Shown: positions 3,802-24,739 of the stretch, in pieces
Numbering within the stretch: position 1 is the stretch's first letter
How the letters are laid out: every line of letters starts with the position of its first letter
DNA from: Gammaproteobacteria bacterium
GTDB lineage: Bacteria > Pseudomonadota > Gammaproteobacteria > JAJDYQ01
NCBI GenBank assembly: GCA_028289815.1
Contig: JAPYNQ010000028.1
Span: 1 to 38,815 of the forward strand
DNA: 38,815 nt
Direction: 5' to 3'
Notes under the pieces: model-generated
Told to the model about the DNA's origin: nothing
What the model saw: only the letters and a program-made list of their open reading frames with translations
Databases searched by the model: none
Program-made: the position numbers and the translations under genes

Positions 3802-5175
3802 CTAGAAAAAGCTGATACCGACCTGGAACAGCTTTTCCACCGCACTGATCTTGTGGCGATCAATCAGAAACAGGATGATATGGTCTTCCGCCATGATCAC
3901 GATGTCATGGTGTGCCATCAGAACTTCTTCACCGCGTACTATGGCCCCTATGGTGGTCCCTGACGGCAGATCAATCTGGTCGACCCGGCGCCCGACTACC
4001 GCAGATGTGTTTTGATCGCCGTGCGCAACCGCTTCAATCGCTTCGGCCGCCCCTCTTCTGAGCGAGTGTGCCTTGACAACATCACCGCGACGAACATGGG
4101 CAAGCAGGCTGCCAATCGTTAGCTGCTGCGGCGATACGGCAATGTCAATCTCTCCCCCCTGGATCAGTTCAACATAGGAGGCACGGTTAATCAGGGACAA
4201 GACTTTGCTTGCCCCAAGGCGCTTGGCCAGCATGGCCGCCAGGATGTTCGCCTGGTCGTCGTTGGTAACAGCGCAAAATACATCTATGCTGTGGATGTTT
4301 TCTTCCGTCAGCAGGTCTTTATCGGCACAGTCACCCTGCAAAACGACAGTTTTATTGAGGCTTTCAGAAATACGGGTCGCCTGCTCCGGGTTGCGCTCAA
4401 TGAGTTTGACCCGGTATTGCTTCTCCAGCGAGCGCGCCAGCCGGGTTCCTATATTTCCGCCACCGGCTATCATGATGCGACGAACCCGCTTTTCTCGTTG
4501 GCGCAGCTCTTCGGTAACTGCCCGGATATGTGCTTCGGCAGCAATAAAAAATACTTCGTCACCCGCTTCAACCACGGTATGCCCCTGGGGAATAATGGGA
4601 CGGTTACGCCGAAAAATGGCAGCAACCCGAACTTCTATTCCCGGCATATGTTCGGTAATCGTCTGTAGTTCATGTCCGACCAGGGGGCCTCCATAATAGG
4701 CCCGCACAGCGACAAGTTTGACCTTGCCGTCGGCAAAATCGGTAACCTGCAAGGCACCCGGATGATCAATCAGGCTGTGAATCGAGTCGGTAACAATCTG
4801 CTCCGGGCTGATTAAGACATCAACCGGCAGGGCTTCCTGATGAAACAGCCGGTCTTCTTTCAGATATTCCGGGGCGCGTACACGGGCAATTTTGGTCGGT
4901 GTATGGAACAGGGTATAGGCAACCTGGCAGGCAATCATATTGACTTCATCGCTGTTGGTTACGGCAATGATCATATCCGCGTCTTCCGCTCCTGCCTGGG
5001 TCAGTATATCGGGGTGTGAGGCATTACCCGAGATGACCCGCAGGTCCAGATGTTCCTGCAGGGCGCGAAGAAATTCCGTATTGGTATCGACAATGGTGAT
5101 GTCGTTGACCTCGCTGGCAAGACTGGCCGCCAGCGTGGAACCGACCTGACCGGCCCCAAGAATAATGATCTTCAT
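3802..5175 (-). CDS. trkA: Trk system NAD-binding regulatory subunit TrkA
   Basis: A 457-residue cytosolic protein, close to the E. coli length of 458. It binds NAD(H)/nucleotides and controls the TrkH pore. Two RCK (Rossmann) halves are visible: GAGQVG at 7-12 with the acidic IVDTN that follows, and GGGNIG at 238-243 with LIERN, each followed by a C-terminal RCK_C segment (about 140-225 and 365-455). The ATG overlaps the stop of the upstream regulator gene by 4 bases (ATGA type), which implies translational coupling. Nothing appears missing or altered. Confidence 0.95.
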
Positions 5176-6557
5176 TGTCCGACCGTTGCTTTCTTATGGT
5201 CTATGCCCAGATTTTTCATCTTACGATACAGGTGGGTTCTCTCCATGCCAACTTTCTTCGCCAGCCTGCCGACACTGCCCCCGGATTGCTTCCATTGATA
5301 TAAGAGATAGTCACGCTCGAAACATTCTCTGGCTTCCCGCATCGGCAGATCCAGTATGCCCGGGGTCAGCATCGCGCTGCAGGTATCATCGGTCGCCTGC
5401 AATGAGGTGCGCAGGATGCGCCGCACATCCAGAGAGGAAATTGTGCGGCTGTCACCCAAAATTAACAGGCGCTGGATGAGGTTCCTGAGCTCGCGGATAT
5501 TGCCCGGCCAGCCATACTCCTGCAAATACGCCATAGCATCATCGGAAAACATGCGATCCGGCAGGTGGTCTCTTTGAATATAGAGATCCACGTAGTGACG
5601 CACTATGTCAGGGATGTCTTCGGCATGTTCTTTCAGGGCAGGCAGACGCACAGGCAGTACATTCAGAAAAAAATACAGATCATCACGAAAATGGCCCGCT
5701 CTTACCGCAAGTTCCAGATCGCTGCGGGTGCTGGCGATAATCCGCACATCCACAGACACCGGACGCGTACCATCAACCCGTAAAAAAGAAGATTCCTGCA
5801 AGGCACTCAGCAGGCGCGCCTGGGTCTCGGCATCCAGGTCGGCCACTTCGTCAAGGAAAAGTGTCCCGCCATCGGCCTGTTCCAGGTGGCCACTGTAGAT
5901 TTCGCCGTTGTGCTCACGGCCAAAAATGGCCGCCTGATAGTTCTCACTGGCGATCGCACCGATCCGCAGTGTGATAAAAGGCCCTTCACGCCGATTACCC
6001 AGATGATGTATGTAGCGTGCGCATGATGCCCGACCGCTGCCTGCCTCGCCCTTAAGCAATACCGGAGAGTAGTGTTGGGCAACATTGGTTGCCTGTTGGC
6101 GCAGATTTTGAATAACCGGGCTCTCTCCCAGGGGCTTTTCGATGTCCGTGGCATTGTTGCGGAGGCGGATATTTTCTCTCGTAAGCTCTACGGCCTGCAT
6201 GGCCCGGCTTACCATCAGCAGCAGCTTTGCCATAGAAAGCGGTTTTTCCAGAAAATCATAGGCCCCAAGACGGGTCGCCTCCACGGCGGTCTCTATCGTC
6301 CCGTGCCCCGACATCATAATGACGTGAAATGGCAATCCGCTCTCCTGTCGCCACTCCTTCAGCAGACTGATACCATCAATATCCGGCATCCAGATATCCA
6401 GCAGGGCCATATCCGGCAGGTTTTCGTCCACCTTAAGCCGGGCCTCAGTCGCATGGCCAGCCACCCATACCTGATAGCCTTCGTCTCGCAGAATGTCGCC
6501 GACCAGTTCCCTGATTTCGGATTCGTCGTCAACAACCAGTATTTTCCCGTCAGCCAT
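5172..6557 (-). CDS. ntrX: NtrX-type response regulator with AAA+ and Fis domains
   Basis: A 461-residue response regulator. The receiver domain (1-125) has Asp10/Asp11, phosphoacceptor Asp54 (ALLD), Ser83 and Lys105. The AAA+ domain spans about 145-370 and the Fis-type helix-turn-helix about 415-455. The Walker A is GEAGSGRA at 170-177 with Arg176 where Lys is normal. Walker B TLFLDEV is intact. The GAFTGA loop that contacts sigma-54 is replaced by a short sequence around 213-224; NtrX proteins are known to lack it, so it probably does not act as a classical sigma-54 activator. The cognate kinase gene ntrY lies 5 kb upstream, split off by an accessory block. The gene overlaps trkA by 4 bases. 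Confidence 0.88.
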
Positions 6558-6611
6558 ATTTCAGGTGCCTCTGAAAACCCTATCCGGCGGTGAATAATAA
6601 TACATTTGGGA

Positions 6612-6617
6612 ATTATA
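6612..6617 (-). promoter_or_regulatory. Candidate -10 box for ntrX-trkA-trkH
   Basis: On the minus strand TATAAT occurs here, about 55 bases before the ntrX start. The -35 side is poor. The element is of interest because insertion of the accessory block would cut ntrX off from any promoter upstream of ntrY, so a local promoter is needed. Confidence 0.35.
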
Positions 6618-6759
6618 CCGATTGTCCTGGTTCAAGCACCTGCCAGAACAAAATCAGGCAACCTGCATAACTTGCTGGTAGTAACTCGTAGAGGCCCCTC
6701 AGATTGTCGGTCGTCTTCATTCAGGAAAGCCGAAACAGGCAGCGTGCCCATTCTCCCGG

Positions 6760-7515
6760 CTATAGCAATCCCATTTGGTCTTGCCTGGACGAGATTGCAG
6801 AATCCCGCTCAATATCCGCAAAGATATTTTTCATATTTGCCCGCCCTGTGGACCGACTTCGAGCGAGACGTCTGCCGCCCAGCTCCAGAACCTTTTTGTT
6901 GCCGCGGGCATGGACAGACATATCCCGATACTCGGCAACATATAGCGGCATATCATGCTTGATGGTTTCCATACTCGCATTCATAGTCCCGCCTTTTTCA
7001 CTGGCCTCTATAACTATCATCGCTTTGCTTAATCCAATGATGATTTGGTTGCGTGCCATCGCTCGATAGCCTTTCCAGACATCATCGGGATTGAATTGGC
7101 TGATTACCAAGGTGCGTGCCCAATTCCAGACGGGTGCCAATGCTCGTTTGATGCGAAAATGGTTTATGCCTTCGGGCAGAACCAGCATCGTTGCTCCCCC
7201 TGCGGCGAGCGAATGGTAGTGCGCTTCGAAGTCAATACCAGCGGCATTACCGGACACAACGGCAAGTCCGGTTACGGCTGTCTGCTCTGCGCAGTCTCTA
7301 ACGGTATCAATTCCTTTCCGGCTGGATTTGCGCGATCCGCAAAATCCGATGCCATTCAAATTCAGCAGATCAACATTACCCTGAAGATAGAGCATAGCCG
7401 GGGCCTTTTTCCCCAGAACAGTAAGCAGCCGCTCCGGGTATAAGGTGTCGCTCTGACTAATCTGCCGAATCTCGGGTGCTGCTGTCGCGTCGTCTGTTAC
7501 TCTACCTTTACTCAA
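6760..7515 (-). CDS. DprA/Smf-like Rossmann (SLOG) protein paired with a phosphoribosyltransferase
   Basis: A 251-residue relative of DNA-processing protein A. The DprA core is recognisable: GSR at 60-62, SGNAAGID at 88-95, LVLPEGI at 111-117, ARNQIIIGLS at 154-163 and VIEASEKGGT at 168-177. The N-terminal SAM-like and C-terminal winged-helix domains of housekeeping DprA are absent, and the C-terminus is basic. The start is most likely TTG at 7515, since the ATG just upstream runs out of frame into a stop. It begins 15 bases after the phosphoribosyltransferase gene and is clearly its operon partner. A canonical dprA lies at 18474-19595, so this copy has a different job. Inference: a nucleotide or DNA sensor in a two-gene accessory, possibly defence, cassette. 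Confidence 0.75.
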   Translation of the reverse strand: MSKGRVTDDATAAPEIRQISQSDTLYPERLLTVLGKKAPAMLYLQGNVDLLNLNGIGFCGSRKSSRKGIDTVRDCAEQTAVTGLAVVSGNAAGIDFEAHYHSLAAGGATMLVLPEGINHFRIKRALAPVWNWARTLVISQFNPDDVWKGYRAMARNQIIIGLSKAMIVIEASEKGGTMNASMETIKHDMPLYVAEYRDMSVHARGNKKVLELGGRRLARSRSTGRANMKNIFADIERDSAISSRQDQMGLL

Positions 7516-7530
7516 AAATCATCTCAATTC

Positions 7531-8397
7531 TTACCGGTTGTCTGTATCTCGCATTGTTTTCACCATACTCAATCCGAGGACATGGCGTGCGCCTGCCTCC
7601 TGCAATTTCATTGCAATGTATTGAATGGTGGTACCTGACTGATACTTGTCATCAATCAGGATGATTTTCTTGTCAGTCAAATCGCTGTTAAAGACTATCC
7701 GGGCATTATGCCAAGCTTCCCATTTTTCATCACGTGTTGCGGATTTGACCGACCTTTTCTCTGCACCAAATGAAAAACGCGCAGTAATATCTTCCTTGTC
7801 AAGTTTCTTGCTCACAATGGATACGACTCCAGAGGGTAAATCGAAGTCCTTACCTCGTTGTGGCGGTATAGCACAAACCAGGTCTGCATCTTTGTAAAGC
7901 CGGATCTCCGTTATCGTATTTATGCAATGTTCGGCAAGTTTTCGGACAGCAATCATGTCATGGTTTTGCTTTGCACGATATTCAAGCTCTCCAATCTCGG
8001 TTCTTGCGCCTTCATCTAAATTGGTAAAGTTATGGTGCATCGCAATAGATGTGTATAAACAGTCCCGCAGGAAGACGCGGCTTCCCTGTTCTTTTACCCA
8101 AGTGTCGATCTCTTGGAATTCTTCCTCGGTAGTAATTGATCGCCAAAACGAGTCACTGTGATAGCGGTCTTTTTTGTTCGGAAAGAGTTCGTAAGGAAAT
8201 AACCTTGAGAACCCACAATCAAATGGAACGTTGAACGTCCCGACATAATCAGGGTGATCTGATCGTTTAGGTTCTTTAGCGTGTGTCGTGGCAAAACAAA
8301 TTCGTCTCGTATCTTTACAGTGTGCCTGTTGGACGGATTTCTTCGTAATAAGGTTCATCTTGTCCGTGCCCTTTAAGGGTTTCTTCAAATCGACCAT
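7531..8397 (-). CDS. ComF-like phosphoribosyltransferase
   Basis: A 288-residue protein with a type I phosphoribosyltransferase domain in its C-terminal half. The PRPP-binding loop reads IILIDDKYQSGTT (245-257), preceded by VCAIPPQRGK (174-183), a layout similar to ComF and amidophosphoribosyltransferase-like proteins. Residues 1-150 form an extension rich in charged and aromatic residues that I do not recognise. The ATG at 8397 is preceded by AAAGGTGA; a GTG one codon upstream is less well placed. It is the first gene of a two-gene operon with the DprA-like gene. The substrate base is unknown. Confidence 0.72.
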   Translation of the reverse strand: MVDLKKPLKGTDKMNLITKKSVQQAHCKDTRRICFATTHAKEPKRSDHPDYVGTFNVPFDCGFSRLFPYELFPNKKDRYHSDSFWRSITTEEEFQEIDTWVKEQGSRVFLRDCLYTSIAMHHNFTNLDEGARTEIGELEYRAKQNHDMIAVRKLAEHCINTITEIRLYKDADLVCAIPPQRGKDFDLPSGVVSIVSKKLDKEDITARFSFGAEKRSVKSATRDEKWEAWHNARIVFNSDLTDKKIILIDDKYQSGTTIQYIAMKLQEAGARHVLGLSMVKTMRDTDNR

Positions 8398-8743
8398 CAC
8401 TCACCTTTCTTAAACCCCGTATTGCTGAATTGCAGCACGTTGCAGCTTTCCTTTAAAGCTCGCTGAAGTCTTTCATCACAAAGGGATGGTATCCCTAGAT
8501 TTCGCATTTGTGAAGATAATATTTAGGGAATCATAGCCGAAAGCCGGTAAACATCTTCAGTTTTTTCTGCATTATCTAGTGACTTGTACGAAGGAGAGGG
8601 CAGTAAAAATGGTGGCTTTTTGATTTGCAGCGGCGGTATTTGACAGATTTCAAGGCGAGGAAGTATTTTGAGGTGGGGCAGTCGACCGGTTTGCATCCGG
8701 TACGGAGAAGCGGAAGATCACCCGAAAAAATATCCGATAATTG
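8398..8743. promoter_or_regulatory. Intergenic region upstream of the phosphoribosyltransferase operon
   Basis: About 345 bases between divergent genes. Two small elements are visible: TTGCAGC repeated at 8430-8436 and 8440-8446 (exactly one 10-bp turn apart, about 35-50 bases before the operon start), and a palindrome AGGGAT-GGT-ATCCCT at 8482-8496. Either could be an operator for the leftward operon. Short open frames near 8600-8790 have no recognisable product. Confidence 0.35.
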
Positions 8744-8818
8744 ATGATCAGCAACTCAGGCCTGATTCGGCCAACTTTCGGTTATAATTCCTATGTAATT
8801 CTGCAGAAGTCGCCGAGT

Positions 8819-8989
8819 CGCGCCTGGGCAGGTATGCGCCAGGCCGGTATAAGTATGCACAGGGCGGCAAACCGATTTGCGCTTAAGGCCCAAGAGGCAG
8901 GGACGCTATCAGCTTACAACACCCTTGCAGAGGTCACCTCTGCCTGTGTAAGCTGCCATACGGATTATCGCATTCGCTGGAGTGTTTAA
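8819..8989 (+). pseudogene. C-terminal remnant of a cytochrome c'-type protein
   Basis: The frame ends with about 55 residues typical of the C-terminal helix of cytochrome c'/c556 proteins: MRQAGISMHRAANRFA, then TLAEVTSACVSCHTDYRI, with the heme site CVSCH. The N-terminal three-helix part and signal peptide are missing; the frame upstream (8744-8818) is unlike a cytochrome. Without an export signal no heme could be attached in the periplasm, so I read it as a truncated relic at the edge of inserted DNA. The next gene starts right after it. Confidence 0.5.
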
Positions 8990-8993
8990 TAGC

Positions 8994-9974
8994 ATGATAA
9001 AGCAGCTGCCTCTTGGAAATAACGGCCCCCTTACCGGTCGCTTGGGATATGGTGCCATGGTGCTTGAGGGATACTATGGTGCTTCTGACGATAGTACCGC
9101 CGTTCAGGCTCTGGCGAAGGCAATTGAGCTGGGGATGTTGATTGACTCGGCTGACGCATACGGAGCAGGCCACAATGAATCGCTGGCAGGACAGGCAATC
9201 AAGGCTGCGAGTAGTAAACCATTGGTGGCGACAAAATTCGGTATCGTCTTTGACGAAGGCATAACCGGAACGGAACTGCCAACCGGCTGGGGATTTTCAC
9301 TCAACATCAACGGCACTCCCGAGTACGCCGAAAAGGCATTAGATGCCAGTTTGACGCGCCTTGGCGTAGATGCTGTTGATTTATGGTATGCGCACTACCC
9401 TGACCCTTCCGTGCCGGTGGAAGAAACGGTCGGGGCAATGTCGAAAGCGGTCGAGCGGGGGAAAGTCAAGTACCTTGGCCTGAGCAATGTCACGGAAGAT
9501 GATGTAAGACGTGCGCACGCTGTTCATCCGATCAGCGCCGTGCAATATGAATATTCGCTGTGGCGCCGCGAAGCAGAGACAGAATTACTGCCAACACTTC
9601 GAGAACTGGGCATTGCGCTTGTCGGATGGTCTCCATTAGGCGGCGGATTGCTGACCGGCACAGTTCGGTCACTCGATGAAGGTGATTTCAGACATAACAA
9701 TCCCCGATACTCCGGAGATAATCTTAAATTAAACCGGGAACGTTTCTCTCCATTGATTGATATTGCAGACAGCCTGCATATCAGCCCTGCACAGCTGGCG
9801 CTGGCGTGGATACTGCACCAGGGTGAGGATATATTTCCTATTCCCGGCTCCAGAAAACCGGAACGCCTTGAGGAAAACGCCGCGGCAGTTGATGTTGTTC
9901 TTGATCAATCTGTTTTAGACGAGATCAGCCGGATTGCCGCACCAGGAACCGCCGTCGGCGCTACTCTGGTATAG
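8994..9974 (+). CDS. Aldo/keto reductase
   Basis: A 326-residue member of the aldo/keto reductase superfamily, which reduces carbonyls with NADPH on a TIM barrel in the cytosol. The catalytic tetrad is visible as Asp51 and Tyr56 (IDSADAYGAG), Lys81 (ATKFG) and His134 (YAHYPDP). The cofactor-binding C-terminal part contains IPIPGSRKPERLEEN-like sequence (seen as FPIPGSRKPERLEEN). The family is closest to YajO/Tas-type dehydrogenases or general AKRs; the substrate is unknown. The ATG at 8994 has GGAG about 11 bases upstream; an in-frame GTG at 8982 has none. It lies within the accessory block but has no obvious link to the restriction genes that follow. Confidence 0.88.
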   Translation: MIKQLPLGNNGPLTGRLGYGAMVLEGYYGASDDSTAVQALAKAIELGMLIDSADAYGAGHNESLAGQAIKAASSKPLVATKFGIVFDEGITGTELPTGWGFSLNINGTPEYAEKALDASLTRLGVDAVDLWYAHYPDPSVPVEETVGAMSKAVERGKVKYLGLSNVTEDDVRRAHAVHPISAVQYEYSLWRREAETELLPTLRELGIALVGWSPLGGGLLTGTVRSLDEGDFRHNNPRYSGDNLKLNRERFSPLIDIADSLHISPAQLALAWILHQGEDIFPIPGSRKPERLEENAAAVDVVLDQSVLDEISRIAAPGTAVGATLV

Positions 9975-10062
9975 ACATGACGGTGAGCTTATTATTAGAA
10001 TCCGCATAAGCAAGTGTTGCCGTCCGGCAATGGTTTAGTCTGCAACAAAAAAGGGATTGACG

Positions 10063-10950
10063 ATGGGCGCGAGCAAGAAACGCTTAACCGAGGGTTCGGT
10101 ATTATCGGATGACAGGCCGCACGTAAAAACAACACCAATAACCGAAGACCGGACATACAAAATTCATTGCGGCGATTGTCTGGAAATCATGCGGTCTATG
10201 CCGGATAACTGCATAGACTTAATAGTGACTTCACCGCCCTATGCCGATGCGAGGACACATACGTATGGCGGTATATCTCCCGACGACTATGTCGATTGGT
10301 TTAAAGAGCGGGCCGAAGAAATGTATCGCATATTAAAACCTACCGGTTCTTTTGTCCTGAATATCAAAGAAAAGGCCGTTGAGGGTGAGCGTCATACCTA
10401 TGTCCTGGATTTGATCCTGTCAATGAAGCGTGAAGTCGGTTTCCGGTGGGTTGAAGAATATATCTGGCATAAGACAACAGCCGCTCCGGGCAAATGGAAA
10501 TACCGGTTCAGGGATGCCTGGGAGCGGATTATTCATTTCAGTAAAACCAGTAGTGTAAAAATGAACCAGGACGCGGTAAAGGTTCCCATCGGAAACTGGA
10601 CAGAGGCCAGACTGAAGAACATGAGTAAAAATGACAGGGAGCGCCGTAATTCCGGGACACGTTCAGGTATTGGCCGGAAAATATCGGCCTGGGAAGGTAA
10701 AAAGCGGGTCTATCCGTCTAATGTCCTGCATAAGTCGCCCGTTGCACACAATACGGGGCATAGTGCGCCGTTCCCGGACTGGTTGCCTGATTTTTTTATC
10801 AAGTTGTTTACGGATGAGGGCGATATTGTGCTTGATCCGTTTTCGGGGAGCGGGACGACATTCAGGGTTGCCGCACAGTTAGGGCGCACCCCGATAGGCA
10901 TAGAGATTAACCCGGAATATATCAAGGGAAATTCCCTGCTCGCGCTATGA
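10063..10950 (+). CDS. Type II DNA methyltransferase, beta class (probably N4-cytosine)
   Basis: A 295-residue amino-methyltransferase. Motif IV TSPPY is at 56-60 near the N-terminus and motif I DPFSGSGTT at 258-266 near the C-terminus, the order that defines the beta class; an SPPY tetrapeptide is typical for N4-cytosine methylation, though adenine targets occur. The ATG at 10063 has AAGGGA upstream; a TTG six bases earlier is less likely. The stop overlaps the start of the nuclease gene by 4 bases, the tight coupling expected of a restriction-modification pair. The target sequence cannot be read from the protein. Confidence 0.88.
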   Translation: MGASKKRLTEGSVLSDDRPHVKTTPITEDRTYKIHCGDCLEIMRSMPDNCIDLIVTSPPYADARTHTYGGISPDDYVDWFKERAEEMYRILKPTGSFVLNIKEKAVEGERHTYVLDLILSMKREVGFRWVEEYIWHKTTAAPGKWKYRFRDAWERIIHFSKTSSVKMNQDAVKVPIGNWTEARLKNMSKNDRERRNSGTRSGIGRKISAWEGKKRVYPSNVLHKSPVAHNTGHSAPFPDWLPDFFIKLFTDEGDIVLDPFSGSGTTFRVAAQLGRTPIGIEINPEYIKGNSLLAL

Positions 10951-11609
10951 ACAGCCTGACCTGGATAGATAAAGATAAACTGCAGGATATTATCCGGGGC
11001 ACGCTGCAACGTGCACAAGAGGCGAACAGCCAGGCTCAGGCCAGAATGAGGAAAAATGTTATTGATCCGTTTTCCTCTCTCGTCATTGCCACCACTACCG
11101 ACATCAACACAAAGGCCGATCTGGTTGCCGTCCAACAAGGCAATTCAGTATCGTCCGGCATAGCAAGTGCTATCGGAGCTTTTCACCAACAGATACCTGG
11201 TTCAATCAAGGGGTTTAAAAATCATAATGCAGGCTACGATCTGGAATGTCCCGGAAGAAACATACTGGCCGAAGTAAAGAACAAGCACAACACCATGAAC
11301 GCATCTAACCACCAGAAGGTAGTAGCCGATCTGGATACGGCAGTGCGTCAAAAGGCAGGCAACCGGGTCGGATATCTGGTAATCATCATACCGGCCAAGC
11401 CAGAACGGTATAAAACGAAACTGACAAAGCGCGAAGTTTATGAAACGGACGGCGCATCATTCTACGAACTTGCAACCGGCAGTAGTAGTGCTTTGCATGA
11501 TCTGTATGACGCATTTGAAGACATCACTACAAACCACTATCCGAAATGGTCGTCAAAAGACATTCTGAAATACTGCAAGAAAGCCCTGCGTGAAGGCATA
11601 CCGGCATAA
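10947..11609 (+). CDS. Type II restriction endonuclease, Eco47II-like
   Basis: A 220-residue protein resembling the Eco47II/Sau96I-type nuclease family (the named members cut GGNCC). Features: VIDPFSSL near residue 40, GAFHQQIPG at 77-85, and a PD-(D/E)xK-like active site with Asp98 (GYDLE) and Glu109-Val-Lys111 (AEVKNKHNT). It overlaps the methyltransferase gene by 4 bases and is its partner. The recognition site is inferred from family only. It appears intact, as expected while the methylase is intact. Convergent with ntrY, 38 bases away. Confidence 0.78.
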   Translation: MNSLTWIDKDKLQDIIRGTLQRAQEANSQAQARMRKNVIDPFSSLVIATTTDINTKADLVAVQQGNSVSSGIASAIGAFHQQIPGSIKGFKNHNAGYDLECPGRNILAEVKNKHNTMNASNHQKVVADLDTAVRQKAGNRVGYLVIIIPAKPERYKTKLTKREVYETDGASFYELATGSSSALHDLYDAFEDITTNHYPKWSSKDILKYCKKALREGIPA

Positions 11610-11647
11610 GGTTACAACCGTATGCGGCCGATGCGGGTTTATTTCGG

Positions 11648-13822
11648 CTAACAGGGTAATGTTATGGTAATTCTGGCACCGCCTTCGATGGTATTGCTGG
11701 CCGATATGGTACCGTTATGCTCTTCAACAATTTTCTTGACGATAGCCATGCCCAGGCCGGTACCGTGGCCTTTGGTTGTTACATATGGTTCAAAGATATT
11801 ATTGATAATGGCGCTGTCAAAGCCCGGACCGTTATCCTGAATAATCATTTGCAGACTACAAACATCAGCACTTGTGGTTAGTCTGGTTATAAATTTCAGT
11901 ATGGGCCGGGGTGTATCCCGCATCGCATCAACCGAATTTTTTACCATGTTGTGCAGTAGCTGCCTGAGCCGACCTTGATCAGCGGTTATCATCCGAATAT
12001 CTTCTGTCAGGTCCAGCCGTACTTCAGGAAAAAGGCGATCTCCCTTGTACATATCAAGGGTCTCGCCAATCAGCTGATTCAACGATATTGGAACCATTTT
12101 TAATTCGGGACTACGGGCATACTGGGTAAAGACGTTGACCATTTCTTTCATTGCCTCTACCTGATCAATAATCGTTTTGGTGGATTTATCCAGCACCTCG
12201 GCCGGCCGACCTGTTATTGCAGCAAGGCATTTGTGTCGTACCCGTTCGGCAGATAGTTGAATCGGCGTCAGGGGATTTTTGATTTCATGTGCCAGTCGTC
12301 GTGCCATCTCTCCCCAGGCGGCATTGCGCTGCGCCTGTACAAATTCGGTGACGTCATCAAACATAACGATGTGTTCGCCTTCGTGCCCGGGTTCCTGTGA
12401 TAGCAACGTGCCGTTGATAATTAATACCTGGCGACCATTCCGGTTAAGAATGGTAAGTTCTTCCTGCCATTCTTGCTTGCCGGAATCCATATTTCGACCC
12501 AGACAGTTACAAAATTCCCGTAGATACGGGTATGAGTGCATAATTTCATCCAGGCTCAGGTCGGTCATATCGCATTCGGCACCAGACAGCAGCCGGGAAG
12601 CCATAGGGTTCATAGTGACAATTCGACGCCGGTTATCAAATGTAATCAGGCCTGATGCCAGGCGGGACAGTACGGTTTGTACATAGGCCCGCTCTTCTTC
12701 CGCAGCGACCTGGCCCAGGCGGGCTTGCTGGCTGGCTTCGGCAATTTTCAGCGTCATATCGTTGAATGAACCGACCAGCTGCCCCAGCTCGTCCTGGCTG
12801 GTCACTACCAGTTGCTTGTCATATTCCCCTCTGGACAGTGCCCGGGTGCCATCCAGTAAAATACGTATCGGTTCGACGAGGCGTCGGGCAGACAGTACGG
12901 CAACAACAACGGCCGCAAGAATGTTAAGCACGAATACCAGAGAAAGTGTAAGAACAAAGCTCTGTTTTAACTCATCGCGAATATAAGACAGTTCCTTGTA
13001 AGCCCCAAACGCGGATTGCACGCTCTGCGCAAGGGTGTTCAGCCGAGCTGCTACCGGGTAAAGTGCCTGGATCAGGCGCTTTTCTCCGGTAATCACGTTG
13101 GTAGTATCAGGTATTGCTATGACTATTCTTATGAAAAAACCGCGGTCTTCAATCAACTCCATATCAAGATACGGATATCCCTGGCGCAGTTGGCTATAAA
13201 CCAGTTCGCTGGGCGTATGGGGAACAACGACCTCCGGGTCGATATTACTGAACGCGTAAACACGACCGGCTGTGTCAAGCAGTGCGATTTCATCAGCAGA
13301 ACCCGATAATCGGAGATCCACCATGTCAAGGGTCGCCAGCGTGGTTGGTGTATCAGCCAGCGATTTAGCCATTCTCAGGGTGGTGCGTGCCTTTTCCCGA
13401 ATCCGTCCGGACATGGCATCACGGCTTAAGTCCAGGGCGTCGCCGAGGGCGGCCTCAATCCTGACATCAAACCAGCTATCAATTCCTCGCTGTAAAAATT
13501 GAATCGACAGAACGTAAACCAGCGAAGCAGGGACAACAGCCAATATGACAAACATGGTCACCATGCGCAGCGTTAATCGGATGCCGGCACGACGCTGTCT
13601 GTACTCCAGCAATAACCGGTATAGCTGGTAACCCAGTATGGTCATCAGAGTGATCAGGCCGACGGCGTTACCCAGTAACAGCCAGGAATAGTAAGGGCCG
13701 ATGGACGCCGAGTTTTCGGTTGCGTTACTTAGCAGGTAAAGCGAGACAAGCATACCGGCAAATAGCGCCAACACCGGAAAAACAAACATTCGCCTGAAAT
13801 AGTTTTTACCGTGAATCCGCAT
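11648..13822 (-). CDS. ntrY: NtrY-type membrane sensor histidine kinase
   Basis: A 724-residue kinase. Transmembrane segments lie near 10-31, 46-68, 86-108 and 289-311, with a periplasmic sensing region at about 109-288. A HAMP domain follows (314-365), then a PAS domain (380-495), a HisKA box with His512 (LAHEIKNPLTPIQ) and a HATPase domain with N box, DNGPGF and GTGLGMAIV. This is the NtrY layout. It should phosphorylate Asp54 of the NtrX-type protein encoded at 5172-6557, which is normally the next gene. It overlaps the DUF4390 gene by 17 bases. Its 3' neighbour here is the end of the restriction nuclease gene instead of ntrX. Confidence 0.9.
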   Translation of the reverse strand: MRIHGKNYFRRMFVFPVLALFAGMLVSLYLLSNATENSASIGPYYSWLLLGNAVGLITLMTILGYQLYRLLLEYRQRRAGIRLTLRMVTMFVILAVVPASLVYVLSIQFLQRGIDSWFDVRIEAALGDALDLSRDAMSGRIREKARTTLRMAKSLADTPTTLATLDMVDLRLSGSADEIALLDTAGRVYAFSNIDPEVVVPHTPSELVYSQLRQGYPYLDMELIEDRGFFIRIVIAIPDTTNVITGEKRLIQALYPVAARLNTLAQSVQSAFGAYKELSYIRDELKQSFVLTLSLVFVLNILAAVVVAVLSARRLVEPIRILLDGTRALSRGEYDKQLVVTSQDELGQLVGSFNDMTLKIAEASQQARLGQVAAEEERAYVQTVLSRLASGLITFDNRRRIVTMNPMASRLLSGAECDMTDLSLDEIMHSYPYLREFCNCLGRNMDSGKQEWQEELTILNRNGRQVLIINGTLLSQEPGHEGEHIVMFDDVTEFVQAQRNAAWGEMARRLAHEIKNPLTPIQLSAERVRHKCLAAITGRPAEVLDKSTKTIIDQVEAMKEMVNVFTQYARSPELKMVPISLNQLIGETLDMYKGDRLFPEVRLDLTEDIRMITADQGRLRQLLHNMVKNSVDAMRDTPRPILKFITRLTTSADVCSLQMIIQDNGPGFDSAIINNIFEPYVTTKGHGTGLGMAIVKKIVEEHNGTISASNTIEGGARITITLPC

Positions 13823-18473: not shown

Positions 18474-19595
18474 ATGACCGAATCCGAGTTGCTTGGCTGG
18501 CTGGCTCTTACACTCGTTCCCGGGCTGGGCCCGGTCAAAATTAACGAGCTTCGGGTTGAGCTCGGTGAACCACCGGCTATTTCCGCTTGCAGCGATAACC
18601 GGTTGATAGCCGCCGGCCTGAATGAAAATCAGATCCAAGCGTTTCGTCAACCGAACGAGCAGTCAATTAAAAGCACGCTAGATTGGCTTGACGCACCGGA
18701 TCATTATTTGGTGCCGATAACTGACCCTGCATACCCACCCATGCTCAGGGAGATTGGTGGTCCCCCGCAGTTACTATTCGCCAAAGGCGATACGAGTATT
18801 CTGCACAGCTTGCAGCTGGCCATTGTCGGCAGCCGGAACCCGACAAATAACGGTTACGAAACTGCCTATAGCTTCTCTAAACATTTAGCTGTGCAGGGAC
18901 TGACGATTACGAGTGGCCTGGCCCTGGGAATTGACGCGGCAAGCCATCTTGGCTGCCTTGATGCCAAGGGTAAAACCATAGCCGTTACAGGTAATGGGCT
19001 GGACAGGGTATATCCGAGGAAACACCATCAGCTCGCTCACCGTATTGCCGAGCAGGGATTGCTGATTTCCGAGTATCTTCCCGGTACAAAACCGTTAGCA
19101 CGGCATTTTCCCCAGCGTAATCGCATTATTGCCGGACTGTCTCTGGGGACCTTGGTCGTTGAAGCTGGCACACAAAGCGGCTCTTTAATCACAGCCCACC
19201 GTGCGCTTGAACAAAACCGTGAAGTCTTCGCGGTACCTGGCTCCATTCATAGTCCATTAGCCAGGGGATGCCACCAGCTTATCAAGCAGGGCACTGCCAA
19301 ACTGATTGAATCAGCCCAGGATATACTCGAAGAATTGGTTACCCCGGCGGCTAATGCCCAGCTGGAAATACGCCTTTCAGACGATGCCCCCGGTACCACC
19401 CGTGAGCATTCTGACAGCAGTACGCATCAGTCAGTCCTGGATGCAATGTCTTTTGACCCGGTCAGTGTGGACACTCTGGCGCAGAGAACCGGAATGGAAG
19501 TCGCGGCGCTGTCATCTATCCTGTTAATACTGGAGCTTGAAAACAAAATCAGCGCGGAAGGTGGAGGCTACTATGTCCGCAATAGTCAAACATGA
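18474..19595 (+). CDS. dprA: DNA-processing protein DprA
   Basis: A 373-residue full-length DprA, which binds incoming single-stranded DNA during transformation and loads RecA. An N-terminal helix-hairpin region (1-70, LTLVPGLGPVK), the Rossmann core with IVGSRNPTNNG, SGLALGIDAASH, VTGNGLDRVYP and RNRIIAGLS...VVEAGTQSGSL, and a C-terminal winged helix (about 310-370) are all present. It starts 11 bases after the lysM gene. The smg (DUF494) gene often found between dprA and topA is absent here. Confidence 0.95.
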   Translation: MTESELLGWLALTLVPGLGPVKINELRVELGEPPAISACSDNRLIAAGLNENQIQAFRQPNEQSIKSTLDWLDAPDHYLVPITDPAYPPMLREIGGPPQLLFAKGDTSILHSLQLAIVGSRNPTNNGYETAYSFSKHLAVQGLTITSGLALGIDAASHLGCLDAKGKTIAVTGNGLDRVYPRKHHQLAHRIAEQGLLISEYLPGTKPLARHFPQRNRIIAGLSLGTLVVEAGTQSGSLITAHRALEQNREVFAVPGSIHSPLARGCHQLIKQGTAKLIESAQDILEELVTPAANAQLEIRLSDDAPGTTREHSDSSTHQSVLDAMSFDPVSVDTLAQRTGMEVAALSSILLILELENKISAEGGGYYVRNSQT

Positions 19596-22763: not shown

Positions 22764-23601
22764 ATGGGCACCAAGCATCCCTATCTCGATTTCACTGAGC
22801 GCCTCAAGCTCTTGGTCTCCAAGCATCCTGCATTGATCACGATCACCCTGAGTAACATCTTCACCATGCGGCTCATAGGAAACAAGACACATGGAGATCT
22901 CGCCGAAATTGCAATAGCTGAATTCATTAATCAGTACATGTACTGACTTCAGATCTGTGCATGTGGGCAAAGACCTCTACCGGGCAAAATCCAAAGAAGA
23001 AGACATAAAAATTATCAATGAAACCACAAAGGCCGAGTTTCCGGTTAGTCTCAAAGCATATGGCGACGGGCCATTACAACTCTCCACAGATAAGTCTTGC
23101 CGCATGTTCAAGCATCTCTCCAAACAGGGGGATGATATCAAGGGAAGAGGTAAAATTCAGAAAATTCTGGATGACCCGGCATTTTCAGAGTTTCGTGAAA
23201 TAAATGTACTGCCGCTGATCTATAACGAAAAGGGCCAGCGCTGCAACATTATGGTTTTTGATTATCGCCGTGCGATTGATGAAACCTTCAGCATTAAGAA
23301 AAAGAAGGGCAGGAAACATCCGGTATATCGATTTTATAATAAGAATGATGAATACATCTGTGAGGTCCGCTATGGCGGTGGCACGACTAACGCCCTTCAG
23401 AGGGGTCTCTGGACACATACGAAGAATGGATTACAGTATTTCGATAGCATCACCGGAGGATGGATTGATTATTCACATAATCAGACCTTGGTAAAGCTCC
23501 TTTCTCATGCCCTCGTGTCCTCAGAAATCGGCCATACGGAAGCACTCAGTACGATCAAGGACGACATTAAGCTGTTAAAGAAAAATTCAGGCATGAATTA
23601 A
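22764..23601 (+). pseudogene. Type II restriction endonuclease-like gene, frameshifted
   Basis: Two frames make one protein. The first runs from ATG 22764 (MGTKHPYLDFTERLKLL ... THGDLAEIAIAEFINQYMY) to TGA at 22944-22946. Skipping one base there continues DFRSVHVGKDLYRAKS ... FPVSLKAYGDGPLQLSTDK to 23601. The corrected length is 278 residues. The nuclease assignment rests on position directly before a D12-class methyltransferase (1 base gap) and on remembered likeness to restriction enzymes with the GDLAEIA and HVGKDLYRAKS blocks; the catalytic residues are not certain. An upstream ATG at 22659 is in frame but overlaps a more protein-like frame, so 22764 is preferred. Confidence 0.6.
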
Positions 23602-23602
23602 T

Positions 23603-24739
23603 ATGGCCCATGTATTGCCACTATTTGATGACATTCTTCCTGAAACACCCAAGACCGAAGGTATTAAATATGCTGGTTCAAAGCTCAAACTCCTTCCTCA
23701 GATTCTCTACCTTGCAAGCAAGGTATCAGCAACAACGGTTACCGATGCATTTGCCGGAACGACCAGGGTATCTCAGGCATTTGCACAGCTGGGATATGAT
23801 GTGATCTGTAATGACAGAGCAGTCTGGTCTGAAACATTTGGCAACTGCTACTTGAAAGCGGATGCGAACAATAGACACTATCAGGAGTTGGTAGATCATC
23901 TGAACGCTGTAGTCCCAAGAGACGGCTGGTTCACTGATAACTATGGCGGATTACCCAACGGCGGCAGTGCGATTCATTGCGACGGCCTGAAAAAGCCATG
24001 GCAAATCCACAACACCAGAAAACTCGACGGAATCAGGGAAGAAATTGATACGCTAAAATTAAATTCCATAGAAAAGTCTGTTGCACTAACCAGCCTCGTG
24101 CTTGCGCTCGACTAGGTGGATAGCACGCTGGGACACTTCGTGTCCTATCTGAAAGAATGGTCAACCCGTTCGTACAAGCAGCTGGACCTGAAGATTCCTC
24201 GAATATGCCCGGTTGATGGAAGACATCAGGTATATCGACAAGATGTTTTTGAACTGTGCAAATCTGTCGAGACCGATCTGACATATCTCGATCCACCATA
24301 TGGTTCTAACAATGAAAAAATGCCGCCTTCCCGGATTCGGTATGCCTCTTACTACCACATATGGACAACGGTTATATTGAACGACAAACCCGACATTTCG
24401 GGGAAGGCACTGAGAAGAACCGACAGTTCGGACAGAATTGCAGGTTCAGTATTTGAAGAGTTTCGCAAGCATGAAAACGGCCGTTTTATTGTGGTAGAGG
24501 CTATCGACCGCCTGCTTTCATCAATCAAGTCAAGGTGGATCATTCTTTCCTATAGCTCAGGAGGGCGGGCTACCGCCGCTGAACTTGATGATGTCCTGAC
24601 CACACACGGTACTATACTGGATATTGTGGAACTGGAGTACAGGAAGAATGTCATGGCCAAGATGAGATGGACAAACGAGTGGCTGCGTGACGCCAAAGAA
24701 GGCAACCGGGAATTCATGTTCCTCATTGAGAAAACATAG
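23603..24739 (+). pseudogene. D12-class DNA adenine methyltransferase interrupted by an amber codon
   Basis: One frame of 378 codons carries a single in-frame TAG at 24113-24115. The front half has KYAGSKLKL (22-30) and the SAM-binding DAFAGTTRVS (48-57). The back half has the catalytic DPPY (TYLDPPYGSNN). Both halves are needed for activity. The context ...LALD*VDSTLGHF... suggests a Lys (AAG) to TAG change. The MethyltransfD12 family methylates adenine N6. It starts 1 base after the nuclease-like gene and is its modification partner. Without suppression it should be inactive, consistent with an inactive nuclease. Confidence 0.7.

Follow-up and report, generated by a model that had tools for sequence, protein, structure and literature searches.

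A phosphoribosyltransferase-DprA gene pair, probably a toxin-antitoxin type phage-defence module on a branch separate from PsyrTA and ShosTA

What is the role of a phosphoribosyltransferase (PRTase) gene that is followed directly by a gene for a DprA-like protein, in a genome with a separate dprA and comF? The pair, referred to here as T (PRTase) and A (DprA-like), lies in a 38,815-nucleotide stretch of DNA, the window, which is contig C21 of the 2.18-Mb genome G000 of a Gammaproteobacteria bacterium (JAPYNQ010000028.1). An earlier note on this DNA had described a 288-residue protein with a phosphoribosyl pyrophosphate (PRPP) loop and a DprA core protein devoid of flanking domains, 15 bases apart, and had proposed a nucleotide-signalling or DNA-sensing defence module. 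The description was confirmed by the open reading frames (ORFs) and by Pfam. T and A probably form a phage-defence module of toxin-antitoxin type; within the DprA + PRTase class they stand on a branch apart from PsyrTA and ShosTA.

The ORF of T spans 7531-8400 on the reverse strand; its likely start is the ATG at 8397, with AAAGGTGAG immediately 5' of it. A conserved N-terminal region (residues ~1-130) precedes the PRTase domain (~132-283), in which the PRPP motif IILIDDKYQSGTT occupies residues 245-257, and a PRTase domain with a PRPP motif, as in the DprA + PRTase class, is present. Residues 132-283 aligned to positions 537-686 of the 689 in the PADLOC PsyrT model (4.8e-10), that is, to the PRTase tail of PsyrT. 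The PADLOC ShosT model matched the PRTase part only (2e-6), and a profile-profile comparison of T with three ShosT-type proteins gave an E value of 6e-8. With Pfam Pribosyltran, the window T stayed below threshold (0.0034); all five members of the first T family alignment were matched (best 7e-7). The best PDB matches of an AlphaFold2 (AF2) model of T were the PRTase-fold proteins PRPP synthetase, ShosT (8zvb-8zvd) and ComF. The term 'ComF-like', used earlier, holds only at the level of the fold, and the PRPP-binding motif is common to T and ComF. It does not hold at the level of the family profile, since T scores 24 bits on TIGR00201 (comF) against 87 bits for the genome's own comF, both below the curated cut-off. 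The acidic pair D249-D250, which binds the ribose hydroxyls of PRPP in PRTases, is invariant in the family alignments.

The N-terminal ~130 residues are conserved among close relatives in the same alignments and had no match in Pfam, NCBIfam, PADLOC or PHROGs. This part is poor in the AF2 model of the window T (predicted local distance difference test, pLDDT, <50 over residues 1-40 and 58-84). A better model was obtained from a natural T-A fusion in another genome (L005, described below), with an EEHEEH strand/helix pattern and a pLDDT mostly of 60-90 over the block. Fold searches returned no named match for the region, and the fusion model was unusable for the T-A interface (predicted template modelling score 0.50).

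A lies downstream of T on the same strand, after a gap of exactly 15 bases, and starts with TTG. PF02481 (2e-40) is its only Pfam domain; the SAM-like N-domain and the winged-helix C-domain are missing. The absence of these flanking domains is genuine, because the housekeeping DprA of the same genome, which has the Rossmann fold in common with A and is encoded ~10 kb from the pair, carries both SAM_SMF and DprA_WH. Among the PADLOC models, A matched PsyrA (3e-50) and ShosA (5e-34), and in the PDB it matched ShosA 9vzo (2e-9).

The conservation of the pair was examined by scanning peptide patterns from T against 84,980 species genomes, which gave four relatives, one record each of Rhodobacteraceae, Nitrospirota, Rickettsiales and Ignavibacteriales. 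In all four, A is directly downstream of T. T and A are fused naturally in one 552-aa frame in the Rickettsiales record (L005), and in the Nitrospirota record T is interrupted by a frameshift beside a nucleotide run of A, possibly an assembly error. A T profile built from the four loci was searched against two phyla, that of the Nitrospirota record and that of the Ignavibacteriales record, with 396 genomes from each. Six further strong homologues (67-130 bits) were found, all in the former phylum, so that ten relatives were found in all; genomes taken from scan loci come without quality or kinship data. Every strong hit of this search, in which only the T profile was used, is followed directly by a DprA gene of the same orientation (10/10). 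Outside the profile-building set the count is 6/6, against 1 of 22 for the weak PRTase hits (27-63 bits), the single case being a RecQ-PRTase-type frame of ~650 aa (Fisher exact ~2e-5, computed by hand; the rows are related and independence is overstated). The adjacency of T and A is conserved across genomes far beyond chance, and the homologues, which the earlier note had asked to be counted for co-occurrence, are together in every strong case.

In a tree of the Rossmann core, ten A proteins form one clade (97/89). The PsyrA types have a clade of their own (99/97) with the A family outside it, and the ShosA types fall together with housekeeping DprA in a 100/99 group, again with A outside. 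The deepest joins of this tree are weak (92/66) and the joining order of the A and PsyrA clades is unsupported. The groups separated in the same way in an earlier tree, which was built from longer regions of fewer sequences. Within the A clade, an N-terminal region is missing from the window A, L004 and L005 and is kept in L006 and L066-L071. For both T and A, the ratio of nonsynonymous to synonymous substitution rates (dN/dS) is ~0.1-0.2 in three close Nitrospirota pairs (NG86; dN 0.09-0.18, dS 0.5-1.9), which indicates purifying selection on both genes in these pairs. The T family is rare and its distribution patchy. Neither congener (G001, G002) has T, nor has any of the 53 other class-level relatives that were searched, and a search at E 1e-8 of 398 further genomes of the phylum was negative as well. 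T-A appears to form a separate, rarer branch of the known PsyrTA/ShosTA class. Among the PsyrA-type genes, those of L015 and L016 stand without an upstream RecQ-PRTase and are followed by an Rpn/YhgA-like ORF; they are candidates for orphan or differently partnered antitoxins.

Judged by domains, motif, profiles and tree, the T-A pair belongs to the published DprA + PRTase toxin-antitoxin/phage-defence class, yet it is neither of the named types. The earlier note was right to mention DprA/SLOG-type proteins beside PRTases as candidate immunity pairs, which correspond to this class. PsyrTA/RqlHI (Sberro 2013; Russell and Mulvey 2015) is reported as a RecQ-PRTase toxin with a DprA-like antitoxin. 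ShosTA (Kimelman 2012; Rousset 2022; Pu 2025; PDB entries 8zva-8zvd and 9vzo) is likewise reported to consist of a PRTase toxin and a DprA-like antitoxin. T-A resembles PsyrTA/RqlHI in the toxin-then-antitoxin order within one operon, in the alignment of the C-terminal half of T with the toxin's PRTase tail and in having PsyrA as the best profile match of A. It differs in that the PsyrTA/RqlHI toxin is a RecQ helicase with a C-terminal PRTase (~690 aa), whereas T has no RecQ part and an unrelated ~130-aa N-terminal region; in that RqlI has an N-terminal region and a helix-turn-helix (HTH), of which A has neither; and in that RqlH D663, required for toxicity, is Gln in T. T-A is comparable to ShosTA in that a PRTase stands alone beside a DprA protein, the match of T to ShosT covering the PRTase part only, and the ShosT and ShosA structures were recovered by fold searches. 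The profile matches to ShosTA are weaker, A lies in another clade than the sampled ShosA-type proteins, and none of the aligned ShosT-type sequences showed the N-terminal region of T.

A further relation of A is HmaB, the DUF1156 methylase of the Hma defence system, whose N-terminal DprA domain falls close to the A proteins (96/90 in the earlier tree, only 92/66 in the Rossmann-core tree); in HmaB this domain is fused to a DNA methylase and there is no PRTase. Proteins with a DprA Rossmann domain N-terminal to an HmaB/DUF1156 methylase were seen in L060 (344-3958, 1204 aa), L061 (2-3505, reverse strand) and L022 (95-1723, reverse strand), and seem to represent a form of the Hma defence methylase that carries DprA.

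The studied relatives provide a model for the action of the pair. The toxicity of RqlH requires its PRTase domain, but this domain does not suffice and is non-toxic on its own; RqlI binds RqlH and counters its toxicity, for which the N-terminal ~84 residues of RqlI are needed and the HTH is not; and the D663A change in RqlH abolishes growth inhibition and induction of the SOS response (PMC4670107). In E. coli, a DprA + PRTase pair from a P2-like phage confers protection from T7 and from lambda (PMC9122126). In a review citing Pu et al. 2025, ShosT is reported to act both as a phosphoribosyltransferase and as a pyrophosphatase, with disturbed purine pools and DNA damage as the result, ShosA is reported to bind DNA, and T7 Gp0.7 is given as a ShosTA trigger (PMC12593503). 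By analogy, T would be the toxin and would bind PRPP, and free T would deplete or corrupt nucleotide pools, with damage to DNA replication, so that the infected cell arrests or dies. A would be the antitoxin and probably also the sensor, and would bind single-stranded DNA or DNA ends through its DprA Rossmann domain. Either by contact or through the promotion of repair, A would hold T in check until it is itself disturbed by phage infection, and infection or DNA damage would release T. The N-terminal domain of T would stand where PsyrT has its RecQ helicase, and is predicted to provide a function in DNA or partner contact that the bare RqlH PRTase domain lacks. The gene, domain, motif, adjacency, phylogeny, selection, defence-context and congener-absence evidence for T-A is at the level of sequence; toxicity, neutralisation, trigger and phage protection we infer from distant relatives.

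The neighbourhoods of several loci point to defence, in agreement with what the earlier note had proposed to look for. An Argonaute gene (pAgo_II 1.5e-32) is upstream of the pair in the Ignavibacteriales locus (L006), AbiE genes lie ~7 kb from it in the Rhodobacteraceae locus (L003), and the window has a restriction-modification (R-M) pair in the same island, as had been noticed before. DprA + PRTase relatives of the wider class sit in type I R-M loci, BREX-1 loci and temperate phages; the plasmid and phage neighbourhoods were chosen from best hits and are non-random, and L040 and L047 have no PRTase beside DprA. In L047 (E. coli plasmid pLAO18, 3701-8591) the DprA-like gene is followed by a long protein with an initial HAD-type motif, annotated as a RecQ helicase, so that DprA has another kind of partner there, and in L044 (Segatella, 4733-5230) a HAD hydrolase follows the PRTase-DprA pair. 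The defence cluster adjoining T-A in L006 (743-7880) includes, with the Argonaute, a Cas4-like nuclease (identified by eye), a small protein without an assigned family and a 372-aa protein with the metalloprotease-like motif FFHELGHYL.

Four points weigh against a toxin-antitoxin defence module. A is without the N-terminal ~84-residue region that RqlI requires against RqlH. The position of RqlH Asp663 is Gln (Q253) in T, invariant in the nine full T sequences aligned. In 6-oxopurine PRTases an Asp at this position is the catalytic base. The chemistry of T may differ from that of RqlH because of this Gln, and the loss of the Asp may point to another acceptor or to breakdown of PRPP alone. No obvious defence neighbours are present at L004 and L005, and scans of phage records, plasmid records and IMG/VR viral contigs gave no match for T. 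A bolder form of the toxin-antitoxin proposal, in which T-A is a third DprA + PRTase immunity family with an N-terminal domain for the helicase, an invariant Gln for Asp, a different PRPP chemistry (e.g. PRPP hydrolysis or a non-purine acceptor) and minimal, Rossmann-only DprA control, is tentative and less likely than not. DprA + PRTase modules are established in phage defence and as toxin-antitoxin systems, and T-A bears on how DprA controls a PRTase and on the purpose of the PsyrT helicase. The branch is a natural experiment, without a helicase, with DprA cut to its Rossmann core and with one fused member, and a small, tractable pair for studying DprA-domain sensing and the use of PRPP by PRTases. 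Profile libraries recognise no more than a part of T and assign the two genes to different named systems, so that genome surveys may overlook pairs of this kind or give them the wrong name.

The main alternative is a sensor-effector arrangement, a model first proposed by Rousset et al., in which T is inactive alone and is activated by A when A binds phage or damaged DNA. The non-toxic PRTase domain of RqlH, the absence from A of the region RqlI needs for neutralisation and the natural T-A fusion, which fits constitutive coupling, all speak for it; RqlHI, PsyrTA and ShosTA are nevertheless all reported as a toxin countered by an antitoxin, and we consider it unlikely. Somewhat less likely still is a selfish addiction module kept without phage defence. 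Toxin-antitoxin pairs can persist selfishly, and the T family is rare and patchy, but defence genes adjoin several of the loci and related systems protect against phages. Nucleotide signalling, named in the earlier proposal, has no direct support and is improbable; in this reading T would make or destroy a PRPP-derived nucleotide and a SLOG-type A would sense it. DprA Rossmann domains do belong to the SLOG superfamily, LDcluster4 matches occur among the relatives, and PRTase + SLOG is a recurring combination, since short PRTases in other genomes precede a different, SLOG-like ORF in place of DprA. The pair contains no signal synthase or separate ligand-gated effector, however, and its closest studied relatives behave as toxin-antitoxin pairs with a PRTase toxin; the defence part of the proposal is, by the same analogy, most likely for T-A itself. 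That the pair is a housekeeping competence set, with which it has domain names in common, is refuted on present evidence by the separate full-length dprA and better-scoring comF, the position of A outside the housekeeping clade and the absence of T from both congeners and the 53 other class relatives searched, in line with the view taken earlier.

The short PRTases just mentioned (206-228 aa; L072-L075, L081, L082) have no DprA neighbour, and each overlaps a downstream ORF with a SLOG-like N-terminus (VFxxGSRxxxxLN), in one case with a weak YAcAr match. This suggests another PRTase + SLOG pair.

Table 1. Coordinates of the T-A pair, its block and the housekeeping dprA in the window
Feature	Positions	Strand	Length or basis
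A, DprA-like Rossmann (SLOG superfamily) protein, probable antitoxin/DNA sensor	6760..7515	-	251 aa; PF02481, PADLOC, PDB match, tree
T, phosphoribosyltransferase, probable toxin/effector	7531..8397	-	288 aa; PADLOC profiles, family alignments, fold search
Block between ntrX and ntrY (A, T, aldo/keto reductase, R-M pair)	6558..11650	.	~5.1 kb, splits ntrY-ntrX operon
Aldo/keto reductase, same block, thought to be outside the system	8982..9974	+	PF00248 2e-71
Type II DNA methyltransferase (N6/N4), R-M neighbour outside the pair	10057..10950	+	PF01555 (N6_N4_Mtase) 8e-47
Eco47II-like type II restriction endonuclease, R-M neighbour outside the pair	10947..11609	+	PF09553 (RE_Eco47II) 3e-31
Housekeeping dprA, outside the system	18474..19595	+	TIGR00732 2e-79, above cut-off; SAM_SMF, Rossmann, DprA_WH

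The block that contains the pair interrupts an operon (Table 1). In the congener G002 (contig C145), only 45 bases separate the match to ntrX from that to ntrY, against 5.1 kb in the window. In the congener G001, ntrX and ntrY are on separate contigs with other neighbours; the junction may therefore mark a site of rearrangement, and the history of the insertion can be traced only in part. The ntrX contig of G001 carries a gene related to that of the R-M methyltransferase (72% identity), so that the R-M genes and the T-A pair need not have come together. Searches of the block for tRNAs, long flanking repeats and Rfam RNAs were negative, and promoter- and terminator-like sites occurred at chance level only. 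Carriage of T by a known phage or plasmid is not supported by the null scans given above.

Between T and the aldo/keto reductase, a short ORF (8741-8989) has a CxxCH motif (ACVSCHTDYR) and resembles the tail of a cytochrome c-type protein, perhaps a remnant. Further along the window, a candidate second R-M locus (22957-24739) consists of an ORF of 214 aa that had no match in Pfam and, after it, a D12-class adenine methyltransferase, which is split by one in-frame stop into 23603-24115 and 24116-24739 in the same frame.
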